A program made the translations under genes and the position numbers. Below, piece by piece: positions 4,647 through 14,040 of a stretch of DNA of 64,000 nt (position 1 is its first letter; each line of letters starts with the position of its first letter). This DNA is from Listeria innocua (GTDB lineage Bacteria; Bacillota; Bacilli; Lactobacillales; Listeriaceae), in NCBI RefSeq assembly GCF_028596125.1, contig NZ_CP117229.1, positions 418,001 to 482,000 of the forward strand, read 5' to 3'. The notes under the pieces were generated by a model, which was given only the letters and a program-made list of their open reading frames with translations, did no database searches and was not told where the DNA came from.

Positions 4647-5156
4647 ATGAACCGTAAACAATTAGAACAATTAGACCAAAAGTGCCTTTATGAAGTATAT
4701 GATGACGAGCAAGAAACAAATGATTTTCGTGTGGGATATATCAGAGCTATTTTTGATTCGTTCATTATATTGGAAAAATACCATACTAGAGTGGGATTTG
4801 ATGGTTTTGCACTCGTAGCAAATGAAGCTATTTTTAAAGTTCAACAAGATACTCAATATCTGAAGCCATATCAAAATTTAAACCGCCCCCAGGAACAAAT
4901 ACCTGAATTAAGTGAGGACGGCGACACACTATTGAATTTTCTTGAATGGACGAAAAAGAACAACAAATTAGTGGAAATAATGACTGTCTGGGATGAGCTA
5001 ATTATCGGGACAATAGAAACGATTGAAGAGAATTTAGTGATGCTTAATACCGTTGCACCAGAAGAATTTCAATCTGACGGGAAATGCTTTATAGAATGCG
5101 ACAATATTGTTGATATTTGTATTGATACAGCGCGACTGAAATTTATTACTACTTAA
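4647..5156 (+). CDS. Small two-repeat protein, paralogue of the one downstream of wapA
   Basis: 169 aa, no signal peptide or membrane segment, acidic. Function not recognised. It aligns along its length with the 184-aa protein at 12526-13080: both have a first module with GYIxA(I/V), then GF/GY..G, then xIxxDTxxLK, and a second module with V/F.I...DE..IG.I...... ending in a DGxCxI...DI line. Each protein looks like two tandem copies of one about 60-residue beta-rich module. The two genes bracket wapA, so a role tied to that locus (immunity or accessory) is possible but unproven. It has its own promoter and an AAGGAG ribosome site. Confidence 0.75.
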   Translation: MNRKQLEQLDQKCLYEVYDDEQETNDFRVGYIRAIFDSFIILEKYHTRVGFDGFALVANEAIFKVQQDTQYLKPYQNLNRPQEQIPELSEDGDTLLNFLEWTKKNNKLVEIMTVWDELIIGTIETIEENLVMLNTVAPEEFQSDGKCFIECDNIVDICIDTARLKFITT

Positions 5157-5409: not shown

Positions 5410-8400
5410 ATGAAAATACATGCAAAAGCAAAAAATGTACTAGTGAGCTTGATAGCATTTATGTTATTCTTTTCACTATTGCCTGGTTATGCACCATTAG
5501 CGGAAGATTCACCTGTAGGAGTGGATGCGCCAGACAAGAAAGCGGGAGAACAAGCACCAACAGAAGTTAAAGAAGAACGAACAGAAAATGAAGTGGTTTT
5601 TGATAACCACGACGGGAGCTTTACAAAACAAATCTTTGCGGATCCTATCAATATGGAAGTTGACGGGGATATGAAGCGCATCGATGCGAATGTGGAGAAA
5701 GAAGCAGATTCTGACATGATTGTTCCAAAACAAACCCCATTAGAATTAGGCTTCTTAGAAAAAATGGAAGACGGGGCATATCAGAAACTAACAAAAGCTG
5801 GCGCAGAAGTTACTTTTCGCTTAAAAGGAGCACGTACAGGCGAGAATGAACAAGCAGTAACAGACCAACCAGCGACCTACAAAGAAAATGAAGTTACTTA
5901 TGAAAACGTATTTCCTAAAACAGATCTAAGGCATTTAACTTTTCCACAATCAGTTAAAGAAGACTTAGTACTACAGGAACCAAATCAAGTAGATACGTAT
6001 GTTTATCAAATTGAAACAAAACTAGATTTAGAACTAGCGGAGAATGGCGATGTGCTATTCAAAAATAAATCCGACGAAACAATGTATACGCTTCCAAAAC
6101 CAGTCATGACAGATTCCAATGTCGGCACTGAAACCGGGGAAGCGGCACAATCCGAAAATGTTTCCTTTAAAGTGAAACAACTGACCAAAACAGTGTATGA
6201 ACTACAACTAAAAGTAGATACAGAATGGCTAAATGATGACGCTCGCGAGTACCCTGTCTATATTGATCCATCTGTTCGTTTAGATAAAATTTATAATGCC
6301 AATATTAATTCGGCTAAACCAACCGAAACAAATATTGGTAGTAAGCTATGGGATTCTGGTCAAAATGCTTATACGTTAAAACTCGGTAAATGGGACAATT
6401 CAACAGGAAATAATGCCGCTTTTTTAAAAATGGATACATCTACTTTAAATAAAGCGACTATTTCTAAAGCAACATTGAAAGTCTATAACATTTGGCATAT
6501 GTCCCCAACGGTTAAAAATGATCTTTGGTATTACGAGGCAAATGCAAAATGGTCTCCGTGGCAAGTGACTTGGAATACAGTGCCACCTGTAACGAGATTA
6601 GGGAGTGTTAACGTTGGTCGTGGTGAGTGGGCGAACTTAGACGTAACCAAAACTGTCCAAGCATGGGCAAGTGGCTCACGAGTGAACAACGGTTTTCGCT
6701 TAGGTACTAACATTAACAAAAACTATTGGAAAAAAGTTGTAGCAAGTGAAAACAATAAAAATTATCCCTATTTGGAAGTGAATTATACGTACGCACAACC
6801 AGAAAAACCAACCGTGAAAACAAGTTCAAACGGTGTTGGAACTGGAACAGGATACATGGATTTATCTTGGAAAGCGGTTCCTGGTGCGACTAGTTATAAT
6901 ATTGTTATTTCTAATGGATATAAATACGAATATTTTAATACAAAAAGTACAGCAACCACTTGGAGTACCAAAGGAAAGAAAATTTTCCCAACAAATGACG
7001 AAATTGCTAAAGGAGAATTTGAATTCCATCATGATGGCAAAGGAACCGACTTCGCTCTTGATCCGCGAGCGCAATATGAAAATGCCTTTCAAGCCGGAAG
7101 TACTTTTGGACTTCGTAATTTAACACGCTATTTATTCAGAGTACAAGCCGTTTTCCCGGGTGGAGAAAGTCCGAATTCCGACTTAGTATTCGCCTACATG
7201 CCAATCGAGAAACCACAAGCTCCTGTTGCAAAAGCGTATTCTAACTTGGCACATAAAGAAACAGGATACGTGGAACTTAACTGGGAAAAGAGCCCAATGG
7301 CAGATGGGTATAAAGTACTTGTCTTTAATGGGAAAGCCTACGAAGAATACGATGTCGGCGCAGAAACAAAGTGGACGACACAAAACAAAGGTATTTGGCC
7401 AACCAAAGAAGAAATTGCTGAAGGGAAATACGCTCTACACCATGACGGAAAAGGCGCAGAACTCGCAAAAGACCCTTCCCCAGTGTATACCAATTCTGGC
7501 GGAAATTATAAAGAGCGCACAAACTACTGGTTCCGCGTTATCGCTTATCAAAAAGCAGGAAATAACACAACTAGCGTGCAATCAGAACCAGCCACACCAT
7601 CTATTCCAGAGGCACTCAATAAACAACTAGGAATGGTTGATTACTGGACAAGTGTGCCAGTTCGTGGCGGCGAAGTGAATGCTACAAACGGAAACTTTTT
7701 ATTCCATGAAACAGATTTCAACTTAGAAGGGCGCGGTCCAAGCATTAATGTTAACCGTACATTTAATAGCCAAGATGATGCAACTGGCATTTTCGGTAAA
7801 GGCTGGACAAGTACGCTCGAAGAAAAACTCGTAGAAGAAGAAAACGGTAATATCGTTTGGGTGGAATCGGACAAGAAAATCCATCGTTTCACAAAAAAAG
7901 GCGATAAATACGAAGCTCCACCAGGCATTTACTCCGAGATTACTAAAAACGCAGATGGCTATTTGAAAATAGAAGAAGATAAGTCAGAAACACGCTTTTT
8001 AGTTGATGGACGATTAAAATCCGAAAAAGACACAAAAGGTAACGAATTAACATACGAATATACTGACGGCAAACTCACAAGCTTGCGCGACGCTTCCGGA
8101 CGTACCGTTACTCTCACGTATGAAGGCGAGCTCGTAAAAGAACTTGTCGGACCAGAAGACCGTAAAATCAGCTACACGTATAATGACAAACAGGAGCTAA
8201 TCAGTTCATCCACAGCCCGCGGAAAATTATATCGCTACGGCTACACAGATGGCTTATTAACCTCGATTTACGATCCAAAACATACAGAAGAAAAACCATA
8301 CGAAACAACTTTTGCCTATGAAGAAGAAAAATTAACAGAAATAACCGATCCAGTCGGCAAAAAAACAACACTTTCTTATGACAAAGCAGAACAACAAACT

Positions 8401-11400
8401 ACTTTAACAAACGAGAAAAAGAAGAAAACCATTTATTCCTACAATGATGCTGGAAATCCAAAGAAAGAAATTGTAGATGCAGATGGTCTCAAACTCACAA
8501 CGACCTACACGTATGAATCAAATAACTTAGTAAAAGAAGTGAATCCTAAGGGACAAGAAGAAACGTACGCTTACGATGCAGATGGTAATATTACGAAAGC
8601 GACAGATGCATACGGAACAGAATCATACACTTACAATGATAATAACGATGTAACGAGCTCAACCGATACAGAAGGACGAAAAACAACCGTTACTTATGAC
8701 GGAGCAGATGCGGTATCAGAAACACTTGCGACAGAATCCCAAGTATCCTCTGTAACACAGTATGATGCCTATGGAAACCCAATTCGCGGTAGTGGCGAAC
8801 TTTCTTCCGGCGGTAACTTACTTCAAAACAGCGGCTTTGAAAAAGGAGCAGGAGTTTCCAACTGGACACTGATTCAATCTGATGCAAAAGGAAGCATGAC
8901 ATTCGATAACACACAGTCAGCTCCAGGAGCACTTGGCGGCAGCGGTTCCGTTAAACTAACGAGTGAAGCAAATTCTACCGTAAAAGGCTATTCATCCGTT
9001 ACCCAACGCGTCGATGTAGAACCAGAAACCACGTATACATTTAGCGCCTGGATTAAAACATCCGGAATGACAAACGCCGATGCACTTCTCATTGGCCGTT
9101 TACAAGATGCGAATGCAAAAGACGTTACCGATGCCGGCGTATGGCAATCCAACCGCGCCACATCGATCAAAAAGAACGGCGACTGGGTAAAACGCCAACT
9201 AACCTTTAAAACATCTAAAAACACGCGCCAAGTCTTGCTTTATTTGGACAACGAACAACCAGCTCCACATAAAGGAAAAGGAACGATTTGGTACGATAAT
9301 GTTCAATTTGAAAAAGGCAGTGTTGCTTCCAGTTACAACCCAGTAGTCAATAACAGCTTTGAAAATCATAATGGAACACTTCCGACTGGCTGGATGCGTA
9401 CAGGCAATACCGCGCTGACACAAGCAAAAGTAGTCGATAATCAAAGCCACAGCGGTGATAGCGCCGTTTACTTCGAGCGAAAAGCAACAAGTGAAGCTTA
9501 CACGCATATTGTCCAAGATGTACCCGTAAATCAAAAAGAAGCCAAAGCATTAACAATTTCCGCACTATCCAAATCAGAAGACGCCAAAGCAAACGGTTCT
9601 GTTGCAACGATGTCGAACGATTATTCGGTATGGGGCACAGTATATTATCAAGATGGCACAACTTCTTCTGTACAAGGTCAATTCCCACTCGGAACGAACG
9701 ACTGGAACCGAAGTGCTGTAGTTGTTAAACCGACCAAGCCAGTCAAAATGATTAAAGTTTACACCATGTTCCGCAATGGTTTAACCGGAAAAGCTTGGTT
9801 TGACGATGTACGTGTCATAGAAGGCGAAGTATTAACAAAAAATGAATATGACGCTTCCGGAAACTATGTAACAGCTAGCTATGACGAAGAAGGCCGCAAA
9901 ATCAGCTTCACTTACGATATTTACGGCAATAAAACATCCGAAACAGACGAAAAAGGCAACAAAAAAACTTTAACTTATGATGCAGACAACGCACTTATAG
10001 ACACCAAACTAGCGAACGGCACATCCGTAGCCTATAAGTACGACGACAATGGCAACACCACCGAAAAAAATGTCACTGCATCTGGCAAAACGCAAAAAAA
10101 CATCTATGAATATGACGTAGATAACAAAATTACCGCATTTACCGACGCACTCAATCGCACAATCAAGTACGAATACGATGCAGCCGGTAATGAAACAAAA
10201 GCAATCATGCCAAATGGTCGCGTAACCGAAAGCACATACGATTCCGCTGACCGCATGGACGGGATTAAATGGAATGATAAACTAGCATTTAAATTCCAAT
10301 ACGATCCAAACGGCAACCAAACAAAAGTAACCGACGAAATTAACAGCATCGTAACCGACAAAACCTACGACGATGCCAACCGAATCACCAAAGTAGCCGA
10401 ACGAGGTGGCGACGTAAGCTACACTTACAAAGACAAACCAACAAAAGACAACAAAGGGAAAACAGACAAAGTCGGCGAAGTAGCCATTAACCACGGCGAC
10501 TACACAGCAAAAACAAGCTACACATACAACGACTTAGACCGGAATACCCGCGTAAACGACGGAAGCAAAAACGCCTATTTCGAGTTTGACGAATTTGGAA
10601 ACATCAACGTCTACACAGCAGGAAACGGCACCGCAGCCAACTACACCTACGATAGTACCCAAAAAGTCACCAACGCAGCTATTAGTAGCGCAAGCGGCAC
10701 CCAAATTTTAGACGAAAACTACACCTATGACGCAGCAAGCAACCGTACAAGCATCGACAACAAACAAGACGGAAAAACAACCTACGAATACGATGCAGTC
10801 AACCAACTAACCAAGGAAACACTACCAGACGGCACCGTAAAAGCATACACATACGATGGCTTCGGAAACCGCACACAAGTAGCAATCAGCGGAAGCGAGA
10901 CAAAAACAATTGCCGCAAGTTATAATGATGGTAATCAACTGGTTTCGTGGAACGGAGAAGCGCTGACGTATGACGCCAATGGTAACCGTACAAGCGATGG
11001 CAAGTACACGTATACATGGGATACCGGCGACCGTTTAAGCAGCATCACGAAAAAAGGTGAGAGCGAGCCGTTTACGAGTTATACGTACGATGATGATAAC
11101 CGCCGCTTGTCGAAAACAGTCGATGGCGTGACGACGAATTATCATTATGATGGCGATAGTATTGATGTTCTGTATGAAACTGATGGTGATGGAAAAGTAG
11201 TTCGTCAGTATGTTTATTCGGATGATAATGTTCGTTTAGCGATGAAGATGAATGGCAAAACCCTCTATTATCACTATAATGCGCATGGCGACGTAATTGC
11301 ACTCACAGATGAAGCAGGTAAAATTGTCGCGGAATATGCTTATGATGCTTGGGGAAATGTGCTGAAAAACACTGCCTCTACAGAAGAAGCCAAAGCGAAT

Positions 11401-11913
11401 CCTTATGGTTATGCAGGATACATGTATGACAAGGAAATCGAACAATATTACTTGATGGCGCGTTATTACGAACCAGAGCAAGGCGTGTTTACCGCTTACG
11501 ATCCGTACCCGGGCGATGAAGATGATCCGCAAACGATGAATGGGTATAATTATGCGAATAATAATCCTGTGATGATGTTTGATCCTGATGGTAATGTTGC
11601 ATGGTGGATTGCGGCAGCAGGTTATGGGGCATTCGAAGGTGGGGCAGAATATTTATTAACAACTAAGAAGAAGAATTGGAAGGGTTTTGGTAAAGCTGTT
11701 GTAAAAGGAGCTGTTTTAGGTCTTGGATTTGGTAAATTATACAAAGGTTTTAAGTTTTTAAAATCAACAAAAATTGTAAGAAAAAATTCAAAAAAATTCA
11801 AAAAAACAAAGATATATAAAAAATTTAGTAAGAAAAAAAAGGTTGTTAATAAGCCCTCAACTAAACGAAAAAAGGCTAAGAAAAAAAAGAAGAGCCGAAA
11901 AAAAGGGCATTAA
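5410..11913 (+). CDS. wapA: WapA/Rhs-type YD-repeat wall-associated toxin
   Basis: 2167 aa, secreted. A signal peptide covers about residues 1-31 (hydrophobic LVSLIAFMLFFSLLPG). Then come a DNRLRE-type beta domain (about 290-462), two tandem fibronectin-like modules (about 463-735, both with DGKG), a DUF6531 start-of-shell motif (about 745-810), YD repeats (about 850-1130), two carbohydrate-binding-like jelly rolls (about 1130-1475, each opening with NSGFE or NSFEN), more YD repeats, and the RHS-associated core ending in PVMMFDPDG (DPDG at 2058-2061). The last 106 residues are the variable tip: a short hydrophobic stretch, glycine-rich helix and a strongly lysine/arginine-rich end. The family is known for contact-dependent growth inhibition through released tips. 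The tip has no motif I recognise. A sortase signal is absent, so attachment is non-covalent. Base composition becomes much richer in A+T after the DPDG point. Confidence 0.93.
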   Translation: MKIHAKAKNVLVSLIAFMLFFSLLPGYAPLAEDSPVGVDAPDKKAGEQAPTEVKEERTENEVVFDNHDGSFTKQIFADPINMEVDGDMKRIDANVEKEADSDMIVPKQTPLELGFLEKMEDGAYQKLTKAGAEVTFRLKGARTGENEQAVTDQPATYKENEVTYENVFPKTDLRHLTFPQSVKEDLVLQEPNQVDTYVYQIETKLDLELAENGDVLFKNKSDETMYTLPKPVMTDSNVGTETGEAAQSENVSFKVKQLTKTVYELQLKVDTEWLNDDAREYPVYIDPSVRLDKIYNANINSAKPTETNIGSKLWDSGQNAYTLKLGKWDNSTGNNAAFLKMDTSTLNKATISKATLKVYNIWHMSPTVKNDLWYYEANAKWSPWQVTWNTVPPVTRLGSVNVGRGEWANLDVTKTVQAWASGSRVNNGFRLGTNINKNYWKKVVASENNKNYPYLEVNYTYAQPEKPTVKTSSNGVGTGTGYMDLSWKAVPGATSYNIVISNGYKYEYFNTKSTATTWSTKGKKIFPTNDEIAKGEFEFHHDGKGTDFALDPRAQYENAFQAGSTFGLRNLTRYLFRVQAVFPGGESPNSDLVFAYMPIEKPQAPVAKAYSNLAHKETGYVELNWEKSPMADGYKVLVFNGKAYEEYDVGAETKWTTQNKGIWPTKEEIAEGKYALHHDGKGAELAKDPSPVYTNSGGNYKERTNYWFRVIAYQKAGNNTTSVQSEPATPSIPEALNKQLGMVDYWTSVPVRGGEVNATNGNFLFHETDFNLEGRGPSINVNRTFNSQDDATGIFGKGWTSTLEEKLVEEENGNIVWVESDKKIHRFTKKGDKYEAPPGIYSEITKNADGYLKIEEDKSETRFLVDGRLKSEKDTKGNELTYEYTDGKLTSLRDASGRTVTLTYEGELVKELVGPEDRKISYTYNDKQELISSSTARGKLYRYGYTDGLLTSIYDPKHTEEKPYETTFAYEEEKLTEITDPVGKKTTLSYDKAEQQTTLTNEKKKKTIYSYNDAGNPKKEIVDADGLKLTTTYTYESNNLVKEVNPKGQEETYAYDADGNITKATDAYGTESYTYNDNNDVTSSTDTEGRKTTVTYDGADAVSETLATESQVSSVTQYDAYGNPIRGSGELSSGGNLLQNSGFEKGAGVSNWTLIQSDAKGSMTFDNTQSAPGALGGSGSVKLTSEANSTVKGYSSVTQRVDVEPETTYTFSAWIKTSGMTNADALLIGRLQDANAKDVTDAGVWQSNRATSIKKNGDWVKRQLTFKTSKNTRQVLLYLDNEQPAPHKGKGTIWYDNVQFEKGSVASSYNPVVNNSFENHNGTLPTGWMRTGNTALTQAKVVDNQSHSGDSAVYFERKATSEAYTHIVQDVPVNQKEAKALTISALSKSEDAKANGSVATMSNDYSVWGTVYYQDGTTSSVQGQFPLGTNDWNRSAVVVKPTKPVKMIKVYTMFRNGLTGKAWFDDVRVIEGEVLTKNEYDASGNYVTASYDEEGRKISFTYDIYGNKTSETDEKGNKKTLTYDADNALIDTKLANGTSVAYKYDDNGNTTEKNVTASGKTQKNIYEYDVDNKITAFTDALNRTIKYEYDAAGNETKAIMPNGRVTESTYDSADRMDGIKWNDKLAFKFQYDPNGNQTKVTDEINSIVTDKTYDDANRITKVAERGGDVSYTYKDKPTKDNKGKTDKVGEVAINHGDYTAKTSYTYNDLDRNTRVNDGSKNAYFEFDEFGNINVYTAGNGTAANYTYDSTQKVTNAAISSASGTQILDENYTYDAASNRTSIDNKQDGKTTYEYDAVNQLTKETLPDGTVKAYTYDGFGNRTQVAISGSETKTIAASYNDGNQLVSWNGEALTYDANGNRTSDGKYTYTWDTGDRLSSITKKGESEPFTSYTYDDDNRRLSKTVDGVTTNYHYDGDSIDVLYETDGDGKVVRQYVYSDDNVRLAMKMNGKTLYYHYNAHGDVIALTDEAGKIVAEYAYDAWGNVLKNTASTEEAKANPYGYAGYMYDKEIEQYYLMARYYEPEQGVFTAYDPYPGDEDDPQTMNGYNYANNNPVMMFDPDGNVAWWIAAAGYGAFEGGAEYLLTTKKKNWKGFGKAVVKGAVLGLGFGKLYKGFKFLKSTKIVRKNSKKFKKTKIYKKFSKKKKVVNKPSTKRKKAKKKKKSRKKGH

Positions 11914-11941
11914 AGATTGAAAAAGAGAGGAGTTTATTTTA

Positions 11942-12097
11942 TTGTTATTAACAATTTATATAGCCCTAGTGATTATTTGTCTATTAATTTGTCTTAGTTT
12001 AGAGTCGAAAAAACAAAAATGGAGTAAAATATTGTTCTGGTTAGTATTTGCTGTAGGGGTTTTTTTTACAATTCGGATAGGGGATTTATTTCTATAA
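11942..12097 (+). CDS. 51-aa two-helix membrane protein, candidate WapA-tip immunity protein
   Basis: A short gene beginning with TTG, 28 bp behind wapA, with GAGAGGAG at 11925-11932 nine bases before the start. The product has two hydrophobic stretches (residues about 3-19, LTIYIALVIICLLICLS, and about 31-47, LFWLVFAVGVFFTI) joined by a short basic hydrophilic turn (ESKKQKWSK). In wapA and rhs loci the gene immediately 3' of the toxin tip normally encodes the cognate immunity protein, and membrane immunity proteins are known for membrane-acting tips. Assignment rests on position, ribosome site and the clean reading frame; there is no family match. It could also be a chance frame. Confidence 0.6.
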   Translation: MLLTIYIALVIICLLICLSLESKKQKWSKILFWLVFAVGVFFTIRIGDLFL

Positions 12098-12177
12098 GAA
12101 ATGAAAATTTAGAAATTATCTTAGTAAACAACGAATCACGCTTATTTGGAATGTAATAAATTAAAAAGTAGAGAGCT

Positions 12178-12275
12178 TCTCTATTTTGGTGACAAAGTAG
12201 AACAAAATTTGATGAACAAACTAAAAATAAACTGAGAATAAGCCTTTCGCTTATGTAAGGAGAACTTATTCCGAA
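12178..12275 (+). pseudogene. Remnant of the 3' end of a paralogue of the 184-aa gene
   Basis: 12178-12245 closely matches the last coding bases and the post-stop sequence of the gene at 12526-13080: GTAGAACAA.ATTTGATGAAC, then AAACTAAAAA.TAAACT.AGAATAAGCC. The frame is broken by a TGA at 12190 and the terminator that follows is degraded. It shows that a second copy of this gene once stood here. Confidence 0.7.
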
Positions 12276-12525: not shown

Positions 12526-13080
12526 ATGTCCACAAAATTCATGTATGAAAGATTACTAAAATGCCAAGAAGCAAATAAACTAGTAGCCATCTATGCGTCA
12601 CGCGAAGACGAATATTTCGAGGCGGGCTACATTGAAGCAGTTACAGCGAGTGATGTTATGTTTCGCTCGAGACGTTCGGACGGTTACGAAGAGGGACATG
12701 TTGTTCTTCCGTTAGAATTAGTGTACCGAATAGAAATTGACACGGCACATTTAAAAACAGCCGAACTACTCGCAAAACATCTTAATCAACAAATCAGCTC
12801 AGGATTATTTGAGAAAGCACCAAACAAAAAGCATTCTCTTTTCGAAATTGCCGCTGATTATGTATACCAAAGTAAAGAGATAATCTTTATTGACATCATA
12901 GGCGACGAGACGCCAGTAATTGGAATGATCGCTGAAAATGAATATGAAGGATTAGAAATTACTTTAGTGGATGACGAAGGTCGATTAGATGGAACTTGTT
13001 GGATAAAGAAAGAAGATATTCTAGCCCTGCGTTTCGGCGGCAGTGTAGAACAAGATTTGATGAACAAACTAAAAAAATAA
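12526..13080 (+). CDS. Small two-repeat protein (paralogue of the 169-aa protein), possible immunity protein
   Basis: 184 aa, soluble, acidic, with a strong ribosome site. Not recognised as a named family. Two copies of one module are visible: residues about 10-68 (KLVAIYASREDEYFEAGYIEAV...GYEEGHVVLPLELVYRI) and about 107-168 (IIFIDIIGDETPVIGMIAE...GRLDGTCWIKKEDILAL), each a likely small beta-barrel. It is paralogous to the protein encoded at 4647-5156, and a fragment of a third copy lies at 12178. Repeated small paralogues behind a polymorphic toxin often are immunity genes kept against different tips. That is inference here. An intrinsic terminator follows. Confidence 0.75.
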   Translation: MSTKFMYERLLKCQEANKLVAIYASREDEYFEAGYIEAVTASDVMFRSRRSDGYEEGHVVLPLELVYRIEIDTAHLKTAELLAKHLNQQISSGLFEKAPNKKHSLFEIAADYVYQSKEIIFIDIIGDETPVIGMIAENEYEGLEITLVDDEGRLDGTCWIKKEDILALRFGGSVEQDLMNKLKK

Positions 13081-13122: not shown

Positions 13123-13265
13123 AAAAGTAAGAGATGTAAATAATACAAATCAGAAAAATAAACTTTACGGGAGCATATGATTAAATAATAAAAGAAATAC
13201 TTAACTTGAATTCGAATAATTTAAAAATAAAATGTATCCGCTATAAAACTTACATTTATTACGTT

Positions 13266-13460
13266 GGTGGTATTGAGGTTCTATATGAAGCGGATAGGAA
13301 AGTAGTTCGTCAGTATGTTTATTCGGATGATAATGAAGACGAATGGGAAAACACTATATTTATAATACACATAGTGATGTTAGTACTTTGATGAATGATG
13401 CTGGTAAGATTATCGCATAGTATGTGCATAATTCTAAGCTTATGTAGTGATTTTGGGTTG
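13266..13460 (+). pseudogene. Orphan, broken wapA core fragment
   Basis: This stretch is a diverged copy of wapA 11157-11358 (the conserved RHS core before the tip). AAAGTAGTTCGTCAGTATGT and the next TTATTCGGATGATAATG are identical in both, and similarity continues through CATGGCGACGTA/CATAGTGATGTT and GCAGGTAAAATTGTCGC/GCTGGTAAGATTATCGC. Small deletions break the frame and in-frame stops follow. No start or ribosome site belongs to it. It is what remains of a displaced wapA 3' cassette; the intact gene behind it (13477-14040) may be the immunity gene of that lost tip. Confidence 0.8.
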
Positions 13461-13476
13461 GAAAGAGGTTGGCCTT

Positions 13477-14040
13477 ATGAGCAAATTAACTAGTGATGAA
13501 GTCGAATTTAAAATAAAAAAACTTATCGATTTAGAAAAAAATTTACCGAAACAAATATTTTCTAATCCCTCAAAATACAATTTTTATTTTGAAGAACCAG
13601 AGGCTATTTATATGGATACGAATGAATTTGTCCATATGATTAAACAAATTGTGGAAATTACACAGGATGAGAAAGCATATATTAGTGAAATTTTGAAAGA
13701 AGATAAATTTTTACAAAAGAGCAAAACTATCTTTAATTTAAAGGAAGTAATAGACTTTACACAGGAAGAGGGTAGTATAGTAGAAAATTTGGATTTTGAA
13801 AATATAACCGAGACAACGATATTTTTATATTGCTATATGTATTTTCCTTCTGAGCAACTCTTTCTTTTCGTTAATGAATATTCAGACACAGCCCTTTTAG
13901 CGATTGATAAAAAACTTGATATTGATATTCCTTGGTATGATGTAGAAACATTTTTGACTGTGGAGAATCTGGGGATGAAAGATAGGCTATACAGGAAGTT
14001 CAGGAAGCGTTTAGTTAATAATTATAAAAAACATGAATAA
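13477..14040 (+). CDS. Hypothetical protein behind the orphan wapA fragment
   Basis: 187 aa from the ATG at 13477, which has GAAAGAGG upstream; an in-frame GTG at 13447 lies inside the wapA fragment and is less likely. Soluble, acidic, helical, A+T-rich codons, no recognised domain. The visible features are a WYDVETFL line near residue 158 and a basic C-terminus. Its position right after a displaced wapA core fragment suggests an orphan immunity protein, since orphan tip/immunity pairs are typical of Rhs loci. The assignment is by context only. Confidence 0.65.
   Translation: MSKLTSDEVEFKIKKLIDLEKNLPKQIFSNPSKYNFYFEEPEAIYMDTNEFVHMIKQIVEITQDEKAYISEILKEDKFLQKSKTIFNLKEVIDFTQEEGSIVENLDFENITETTIFLYCYMYFPSEQLFLFVNEYSDTALLAIDKKLDIDIPWYDVETFLTVENLGMKDRLYRKFRKRLVNNYKKHE

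Follow-up and report, generated by a model that had tools for sequence, protein, structure and literature searches.

The window analyzed here, a 64,000-nt stretch of Listeria innocua DNA (contig NZ_CP117229.1 of assembly GCF_028596125.1, positions 418,001 to 482,000 of the forward strand), contains a wapA gene that ends in a variable 106-residue tip and is directly followed by a 51-codon gene, which we call imm51. Our comparison with other Listeriaceae genomes established the conservation of imm51, the selection acting on it, its linkage to the tip, its orphan distribution, and an association between the tip family and membrane-protein open reading frames (ORFs). We consider it probable that the tip is a helical, cationic glycine-zipper toxin that disrupts membranes and that the hairpin protein encoded by imm51 is its cognate immunity protein; toxicity, neutralization, and membrane action are what we infer from the sequences. 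An earlier first-pass annotation of this DNA had proposed much the same interpretation, which was largely borne out: no tip was found without the small gene, and the small gene proved to be conserved.

The wapA gene (5410-11913; wapA, imm51, and their parts all lie on the forward strand) encodes a 2167-aa protein in which the variable tip is preceded by DNRLRE, DUF6531, numerous RHS/YD repeats, and an RHS core with DPDG at its end. Its N-terminus, judged by eye, resembles a signal peptide. The DPDG motif (residues 2058-2061) ends at nucleotide 11592, and the tip, the proposed membrane-acting toxin domain, is encoded at 11593-11910, with the stop codon at 11911-11913; these boundaries confirm the first-pass annotation. 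The tip contains three (G/A/S)xxxGxxxG zipper patterns (shuffle P 0.01). One is located in a hydrophobic helix (11614-11640, tip residues 8-16), and an extended one spans 11695-11733 (tip residues 35-47); in our tip alignment A2, the column of residue 39 is invariant and that of residue 43 is nearly invariant. The C-terminal half of the tip (11749-11910) is basic, with 29 Lys or Arg among 54 residues. Scans of Pfam and NCBIfam gave no match for the tip above the curated cut-offs, the best PHROGs match had an E value of 0.083, and neither a nuclease family nor a bacteriocin family was matched in the three libraries. The full-length WapA protein gave no match to the LXG domain in the family-library scan.

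The imm51 gene (11942-12097) begins with TTG 28 nt after the wapA stop codon, and a Shine-Dalgarno sequence (GAGAGGAG, 11925-11932) is located nine bases 5' of the start, as had been claimed. The predicted protein contains two hydrophobic stretches, the second of which barely exceeded the hydropathy cut-off (1.62 versus 1.6), and its AlphaFold2 model is a two-helix hairpin (helices 2-22 and 26-50; mean pLDDT 73.8, four sequences), in line with the two membrane helices originally proposed. As a chance control, both strands of the 64-kb window were searched, and imm51 was the sole ORF of 45-80 aa that combined two predicted membrane helices with a Shine-Dalgarno match of at least 5/6. The protein had no Pfam or NCBIfam match above the curated cut-offs, and its best PHROGs match had an E value of 0.26. 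DUF2304 (PF10066) reached 17.1 bits, under the Pfam gathering cut-off of 25.5; among ten imm51 relatives, DUF2304 matched two (E <= 0.01; best 0.0045) and Ac110_PIF matched one (0.0036).

Nine of 25 Listeria genomes contain relatives of imm51, as do a genome from a different Listeriaceae genus (G188), which carries a second, weaker copy (E 9e-5), and one L. innocua record; a stop-containing weak match in genome G001 was left out of these counts. The dN/dS ratio between imm51 and six close copies was 0.09-0.13 (pairwise with the window and thus non-independent), and four more distant copies gave 0.17, 0.32, and two comparisons with saturated dS. The copies differ in length by whole codons (3- and 4-codon deletions only); eight copies start with TTG, and three have ATG in its place. 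The copy in genome G006 is disturbed near its end, where similarity to the last residues resumes in another frame after a T run. Because imm51 has relatives in Listeria and a sister genus, a dN/dS of approximately 0.1, and length changes of whole codons, we conclude that it is a real gene conserved under purifying selection. A profile search of 198 genomes of the order yielded 31 matches at E <= 0.01; nine of them (E < 1e-18), all from Listeriaceae, look real, and the remainder were short (E 0.001-0.01) and mostly located within longer frames. None of 76 candidates from viral contigs was confirmed, and the plasmid records contained imm51 only in the L. innocua record (476 kb), where the incomplete PLSDB table lists no gene at this position.

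We then considered the linkage of the two genes in 36 Listeriaceae genomes, defining close tip copies as matches with E <= 1e-8 (other subtypes match from 1e-4 upward). There were four close copies including that of the window, and an imm51 relative was located directly behind all four, so the co-occurrence check found no tip without the small gene, the two decayed copies included. The copy in G006 is intact and fused to WapA (61% identity over 107 alignment columns) and also has a basic tail. Of the two decayed copies, that in G011 is interrupted by one stop and is 76% identical over 68 residues, and that in G188 has three stops and 40% identity over 53 residues; each sits downstream of wapA in its own genome. 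Decay of the tip while the small gene stays intact is the usual picture of displaced toxin/immunity cassettes, a pattern described for Streptococcus suis WapA. A pattern-based scan of genome contigs, from which the window's own genome was possibly excluded, confirmed none of 587 tip candidates, and none was found in plasmid records.

Six of the 25 Listeria genomes carry imm51 without a close tip, and in three of them it lies approximately 11-13 kb downstream of a WapA core. Genome G012 has no WapA core match (E <= 1e-6) and yet contains an imm51 relative, within a group of six two-helix ORFs (53-74 aa) in 3 kb (L030:7899-10864) that also includes a relative of imm55, the hairpin gene of another tip subtype; two of the six passed the stricter ribosome-site rule (Shine-Dalgarno at least 5/6). 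Further small two-helix ORFs were present in the wapA arrays of loci L034, L026, L027, L025, and L051, and these, like those of G012, are apparently orphan immunity genes of other tips. The persistence of imm51 without its tip, even in a genome without a WapA core match, is the usual signature of an immunity gene. Polymorphic toxins are expected to have an immunity gene directly downstream together with displaced or orphan copies, and imm51 agrees with this expectation in position and distribution only. Linkage in all four cases and purifying selection thus support the earlier suggestion that imm51 is likely the immunity gene of the tip, as far as sequence comparison can indicate.

The larger finding is that the window tip is a member of an unnamed Listeriaceae family of WapA tips, probably one whose tips act on membranes and have small membrane proteins as immunity partners. 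The 36 genomes contained 70 RHS-core matches, of which 60 were read; the other ten were partial, relic, or weaker, and one of these, the core relic preceding the decayed tip of G011, was covered through locus L023. Nine of the 60 were dropped before the tips were counted: seven with tips shorter than 60 aa, L065, which was masked, and L087, where the stretch had been anchored to a neighboring core and ran off the end (the intended tip, seen in L029, lies outside the family, has a soluble ORF behind it, and was not counted). The last 90 aa of the RHS core matched in 30 of the 36 genomes and are followed by many unrelated tips, which is the conserved core and variable tip of a polymorphic toxin. 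An all-against-all BLAST comparison of the 51 remaining tips produced one single-linkage cluster of 15 that included the window tip, and we added L072 by eye once its neighbor had been seen. Members share a hydrophobic helix that is rich in Trp and contains GA...G...Y; W(K)GAGKAA..GA..G follows, and the pattern closes with a basic tail. The family profile matched 17 of the 36 genomes at E <= 1e-4, and among 398 Bacilli genomes sampled, no tip other than that of the window reached E <= 1e-6.

A Pfam scan of 11 of the 14 tips in alignment A2 gave no match above the cut-off, and an NCBIfam scan of all 14 up to E = 0.01 gave a single match, of one member to chlorophyll synthase (E = 0.0066). The first-pass annotation recognized no class for the tip, which is not a one-off but a member of this family. 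Zipper patterns averaged 2.6 per family tip compared with 0.92 in 25 other WapA tips. The earlier description of an extremely Lys/Arg-rich end needs correction: with 37 Lys or Arg residues (35%), the tip is at the upper end of the range, but basicity is not diagnostic, since nearly all intact WapA tips contain approximately 25-35% Lys/Arg, including those with soluble ORFs behind them; we therefore rejected basic composition as a mark of the class.

To compare the genes behind the tips, we picked the following ORF by a fixed rule and counted helices by a plain hydropathy rule. This was possible for 49 of the 51 tips; L070, at a contig end, and L088 gave no evaluable ORF. The next ORF had two or more predicted helices behind 13 of 15 family tips (ORFs of 51-118 aa) and 1 of 34 other tips (Fisher 5e-9). 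The association held with one representative per 60%-identity cluster (9/10 versus 1/20; 7e-6), with the WapA-type core alone (9/10 versus 1/15; 5e-5), and with L072 excluded from the family (12/14 versus 2/35; Fisher 8e-8), but the count is not an independent test because the association was first noticed on some of the same loci. The net charge of the ORF was positive behind 14 of the 15 family tips and negative behind 32 of the 34 others, as expected if only the non-family ORFs neutralize a basic tip through direct soluble binding. An hhalign comparison of imm51 with imm55, based on small alignments and of little power, detected no homology (probability 0.2 percent), and thus a single tip family seems to have unrelated small membrane proteins as its partners. 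These counts lend support, at the family level, to the earlier view that a membrane immunity protein may mark a membrane-acting tip.

We propose the following mechanism. The last 106 residues of WapA would be the exchangeable toxin cargo of a polymorphic-toxin system, with imm51 as the cognate immunity gene. WapA may be exported by the Sec pathway, given its signal-peptide-like start, and the tip would be held inside the WapA shell until delivery, as in other Rhs proteins. The two glycine-zipper helices of the tip would insert into the cytoplasmic membrane of a neighboring cell, aided by the polycationic C-terminal half, which may bind anionic envelope polymers or lipids; the inserted tip would then oligomerize and depolarize the target membrane, presumably by forming a pore. 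In kin cells, the imm51 hairpin in the membrane would block insertion or assembly of the tip. The basic loop between its helices is predicted to lie inside, and both ends are therefore predicted to be outside, according to the positive-inside rule for membrane-protein topology. For the family as a whole, we lean, with less assurance, toward the view that these tips, with two glycine-zipper helices and a polycationic tail, kill through membrane damage, that several apparently unrelated families of 50-120-aa membrane proteins provide immunity, many of them tiny hairpins missed by gene tables, and that neighbors gather the hairpins as orphan antitoxin islands, even where no WapA core is detectable.

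Several observations weigh against a membrane-acting tip with a dedicated membrane immunity protein. The predicted model of the tip is all helical but of low confidence (pTM 0.28 from two sequences). All 16 family tips have one or more zipper patterns, but so do 19 of the 25 WapA tips outside the family, and shuffling individual family tips gave P values from 0.003 to 0.29. At two family loci the ORF has one predicted helix: L099 and L068, the latter being the G006 copy whose end is disturbed; at L094 the following ORF is 195 nt downstream, and the non-family tip of L095 has a two-helix ORF behind it. Some genomes are drafts, in which the absence of a tip is uncertain, and the rule that a membrane toxin has a membrane immunity protein is not strict, since the zipper toxin TelE is neutralized by a soluble protein. 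Part of the hydrophobic half of the tip is similar to the stretch preceding nuclease-like tips, and this half may therefore contribute to delivery too, or be a delivery module rather than the toxin. We rejected the idea that it is merely a universal linker because the BLAST cluster tracks the membrane ORFs, with the partial similarity to the linkers of nuclease tips remaining.

This similarity is shared ground with an unlikely alternative in which the target is cytoplasmic: the hydrophobic half would only carry the polycationic half across the membrane, to bind nucleic acid or ribosomes there, and immunity would come from the membrane protein blocking entry. The density of Lys and Arg in the last 54 residues is compatible with such a role, and two-helix immunity proteins have been suggested to prevent uptake (Zhang et al. 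2012, PMC3482391). However, the tip has no enzyme family match and its low-confidence model is all helical, and basic tips are the rule whereas membrane ORFs occur mainly behind this tip family. A general entry blocker should moreover serve many tips, and the tip subtypes have different, apparently unrelated hairpins, as far as the low-powered comparison of imm51 with imm55 can tell.

A short cationic helical domain with a membrane partner could also act like a cationic bacteriocin on the outer leaflet or on a wall precursor, such as lipid II or lipoteichoic acid, with imm51 shielding the target. The sole PDB lead for the family profile (A2 positions 31-57), the frog antimicrobial peptide Gaegurin-4, points in this direction without being significant (E = 0.13). 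We regard this as quite improbable, because the window tip matches no bacteriocin family and a receptor-shielding protein need not follow one tip subtype. Least probable of all, and by a wide measure doubtful, is that the tip is an inert, truncated remnant of a longer nuclease tip whose Lys-rich end reflects drift in A-rich DNA. At 106 aa it is among the shorter intact WapA tips (most others have 118-158 aa), and the DNA behind it carries relics; however, conservation in G006 extends over almost all of the tip and takes in the Lys-rich end (pN 0.23 and pS 0.75; 0.29 and 0.82 for the tail alone), the tip is still in frame with full-length WapA, and its partner gene is intact.

WapA is often labelled a tRNA nuclease, and behind the tRNase tip of Bacillus subtilis WapA lies a soluble immunity protein; the window differs from this type in having a two-helix membrane ORF behind the tip. 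One Listeria genome paper applies the tRNA nuclease label to a WapA module (PMC6768887), and in a second paper an RHS protein of L. monocytogenes is set against WapA of B. subtilis. In Streptococcus suis, WapA proteins have variable C-terminal toxins, adjacent immunity genes, and displaced older pairs downstream, and two of the toxins inhibited Escherichia coli from the periplasm and not from the cytoplasm (PMC12704120). The architecture is the same by description, and the portions of that paper available to us contain no membrane-active tip family with hairpin immunity. A Listeria Rhs toxin, LrhA (1656 residues, linked to the type VII secretion system, T7SS), has a candidate immunity protein, LrhI, and an envelope target has been suggested (PMC10327511). 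LrhI resembles imm51 in being a candidate immunity protein with a transmembrane helix, but it has 261 aa with one helix and a globular part, and the word WapA does not occur in that paper. Among the open-licence papers listed for Listeria WapA, Rhs, YD-repeat, or membrane-depolarizing proteins and for WapA immunity, no title or abstract opening describes the tip family.

Membrane toxins with comparable partners are known from other systems. Tse5 of Pseudomonas aeruginosa is a pore-forming toxin at the C-terminus of an Rhs protein, with the membrane-bound immunity protein Tsi5 (PMC10684867, PMC12744356). It is like the WapA tip, by description, in being the C-terminal piece of an Rhs shell protein, in its membrane target (proposed for the tip), and in its membrane-bound immunity; it differs in being a Gram-negative effector of the type VI secretion system with a toxin fragment of 149 residues, compared with the Lys-rich 106 of the tip. 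Three T7SS toxins share glycine-zipper helices with the tip (PMC12744356, PMC10434224). EsxX depolarizes membranes and is neutralized from outside by the membrane proteins ExiCD, whose genes also occur as orphans in antitoxin islands, and its cytoplasmic form needs an additional soluble immunity pair; TspA, also depolarizing, has the membrane immunity protein TsaI, and TelE destabilizes membranes and has the soluble immunity protein TipE. Unlike WapA, which has no LXG match, EsxX and TelE carry an LXG domain, and all three are delivered by the T7SS. Imm17 and Imm-CdiI are tiny immunity families with two membrane helices, Imm17 occurring in polyimmunity loci and having a WxW motif and an Arg in the region between its helices (Zhang et al. 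2012, PMC3482391). The imm51 protein resembles both in its two helices, Imm-CdiI by description only, but it lacks WxW, and a Pfam scan reporting hits up to E = 1 did not return Imm17 for it.

If these proposals are correct, many Listeria WapA proteins would be membrane toxins rather than tRNA nucleases, with their specificity residing in hairpin genes of 50-60 aa. Such genes may often be overlooked: a 20-kb stretch of the L. innocua record contains four small two-helix ORFs, three of them without a gene in the incomplete PLSDB table. The family would offer natural toxin and immunity variants for the question of how a 51-residue hairpin recognizes a helical membrane toxin, and the pairs may be markers of which Listeria outcompetes which.

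Directly behind imm51 on the forward strand, the stretch at 12101-12227 is a relic derived from the 3' end of a nearby gene (12526-13080) and a probable footprint of cassette recombination. The gene at 12526-13080 was considered as an immunity gene and rejected, as a relative also follows imm55 in L023 and L029. This gene and that at 4647-5156, which flank wapA, are distantly related paralogues, with 24% identity and an E value of 1e-5 when the two sequences are compared with each other. Farther downstream, a WapA core relic (13286-13335, within 13206-13391), also part of the cassette footprint in the window, precedes an orphan 197-aa ORF (13447-14040) with no family match above the cut-off.

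Other Listeria tips in the collection were of different kinds. L103-L112 represent a second Listeria Rhs family, with a core approximately 40% identical and a long Lys/Ala/Val repeat stretch behind DPSG and before the toxin part; their tips are 377-450 aa where intact, and the ORFs adjoining the intact ones are acidic with no predicted helix. In G006, a displaced WapA tip (L090:271-741), which by eye we take to be GIY-YIG-like, is followed by a 236-aa acidic ORF with no predicted helix.

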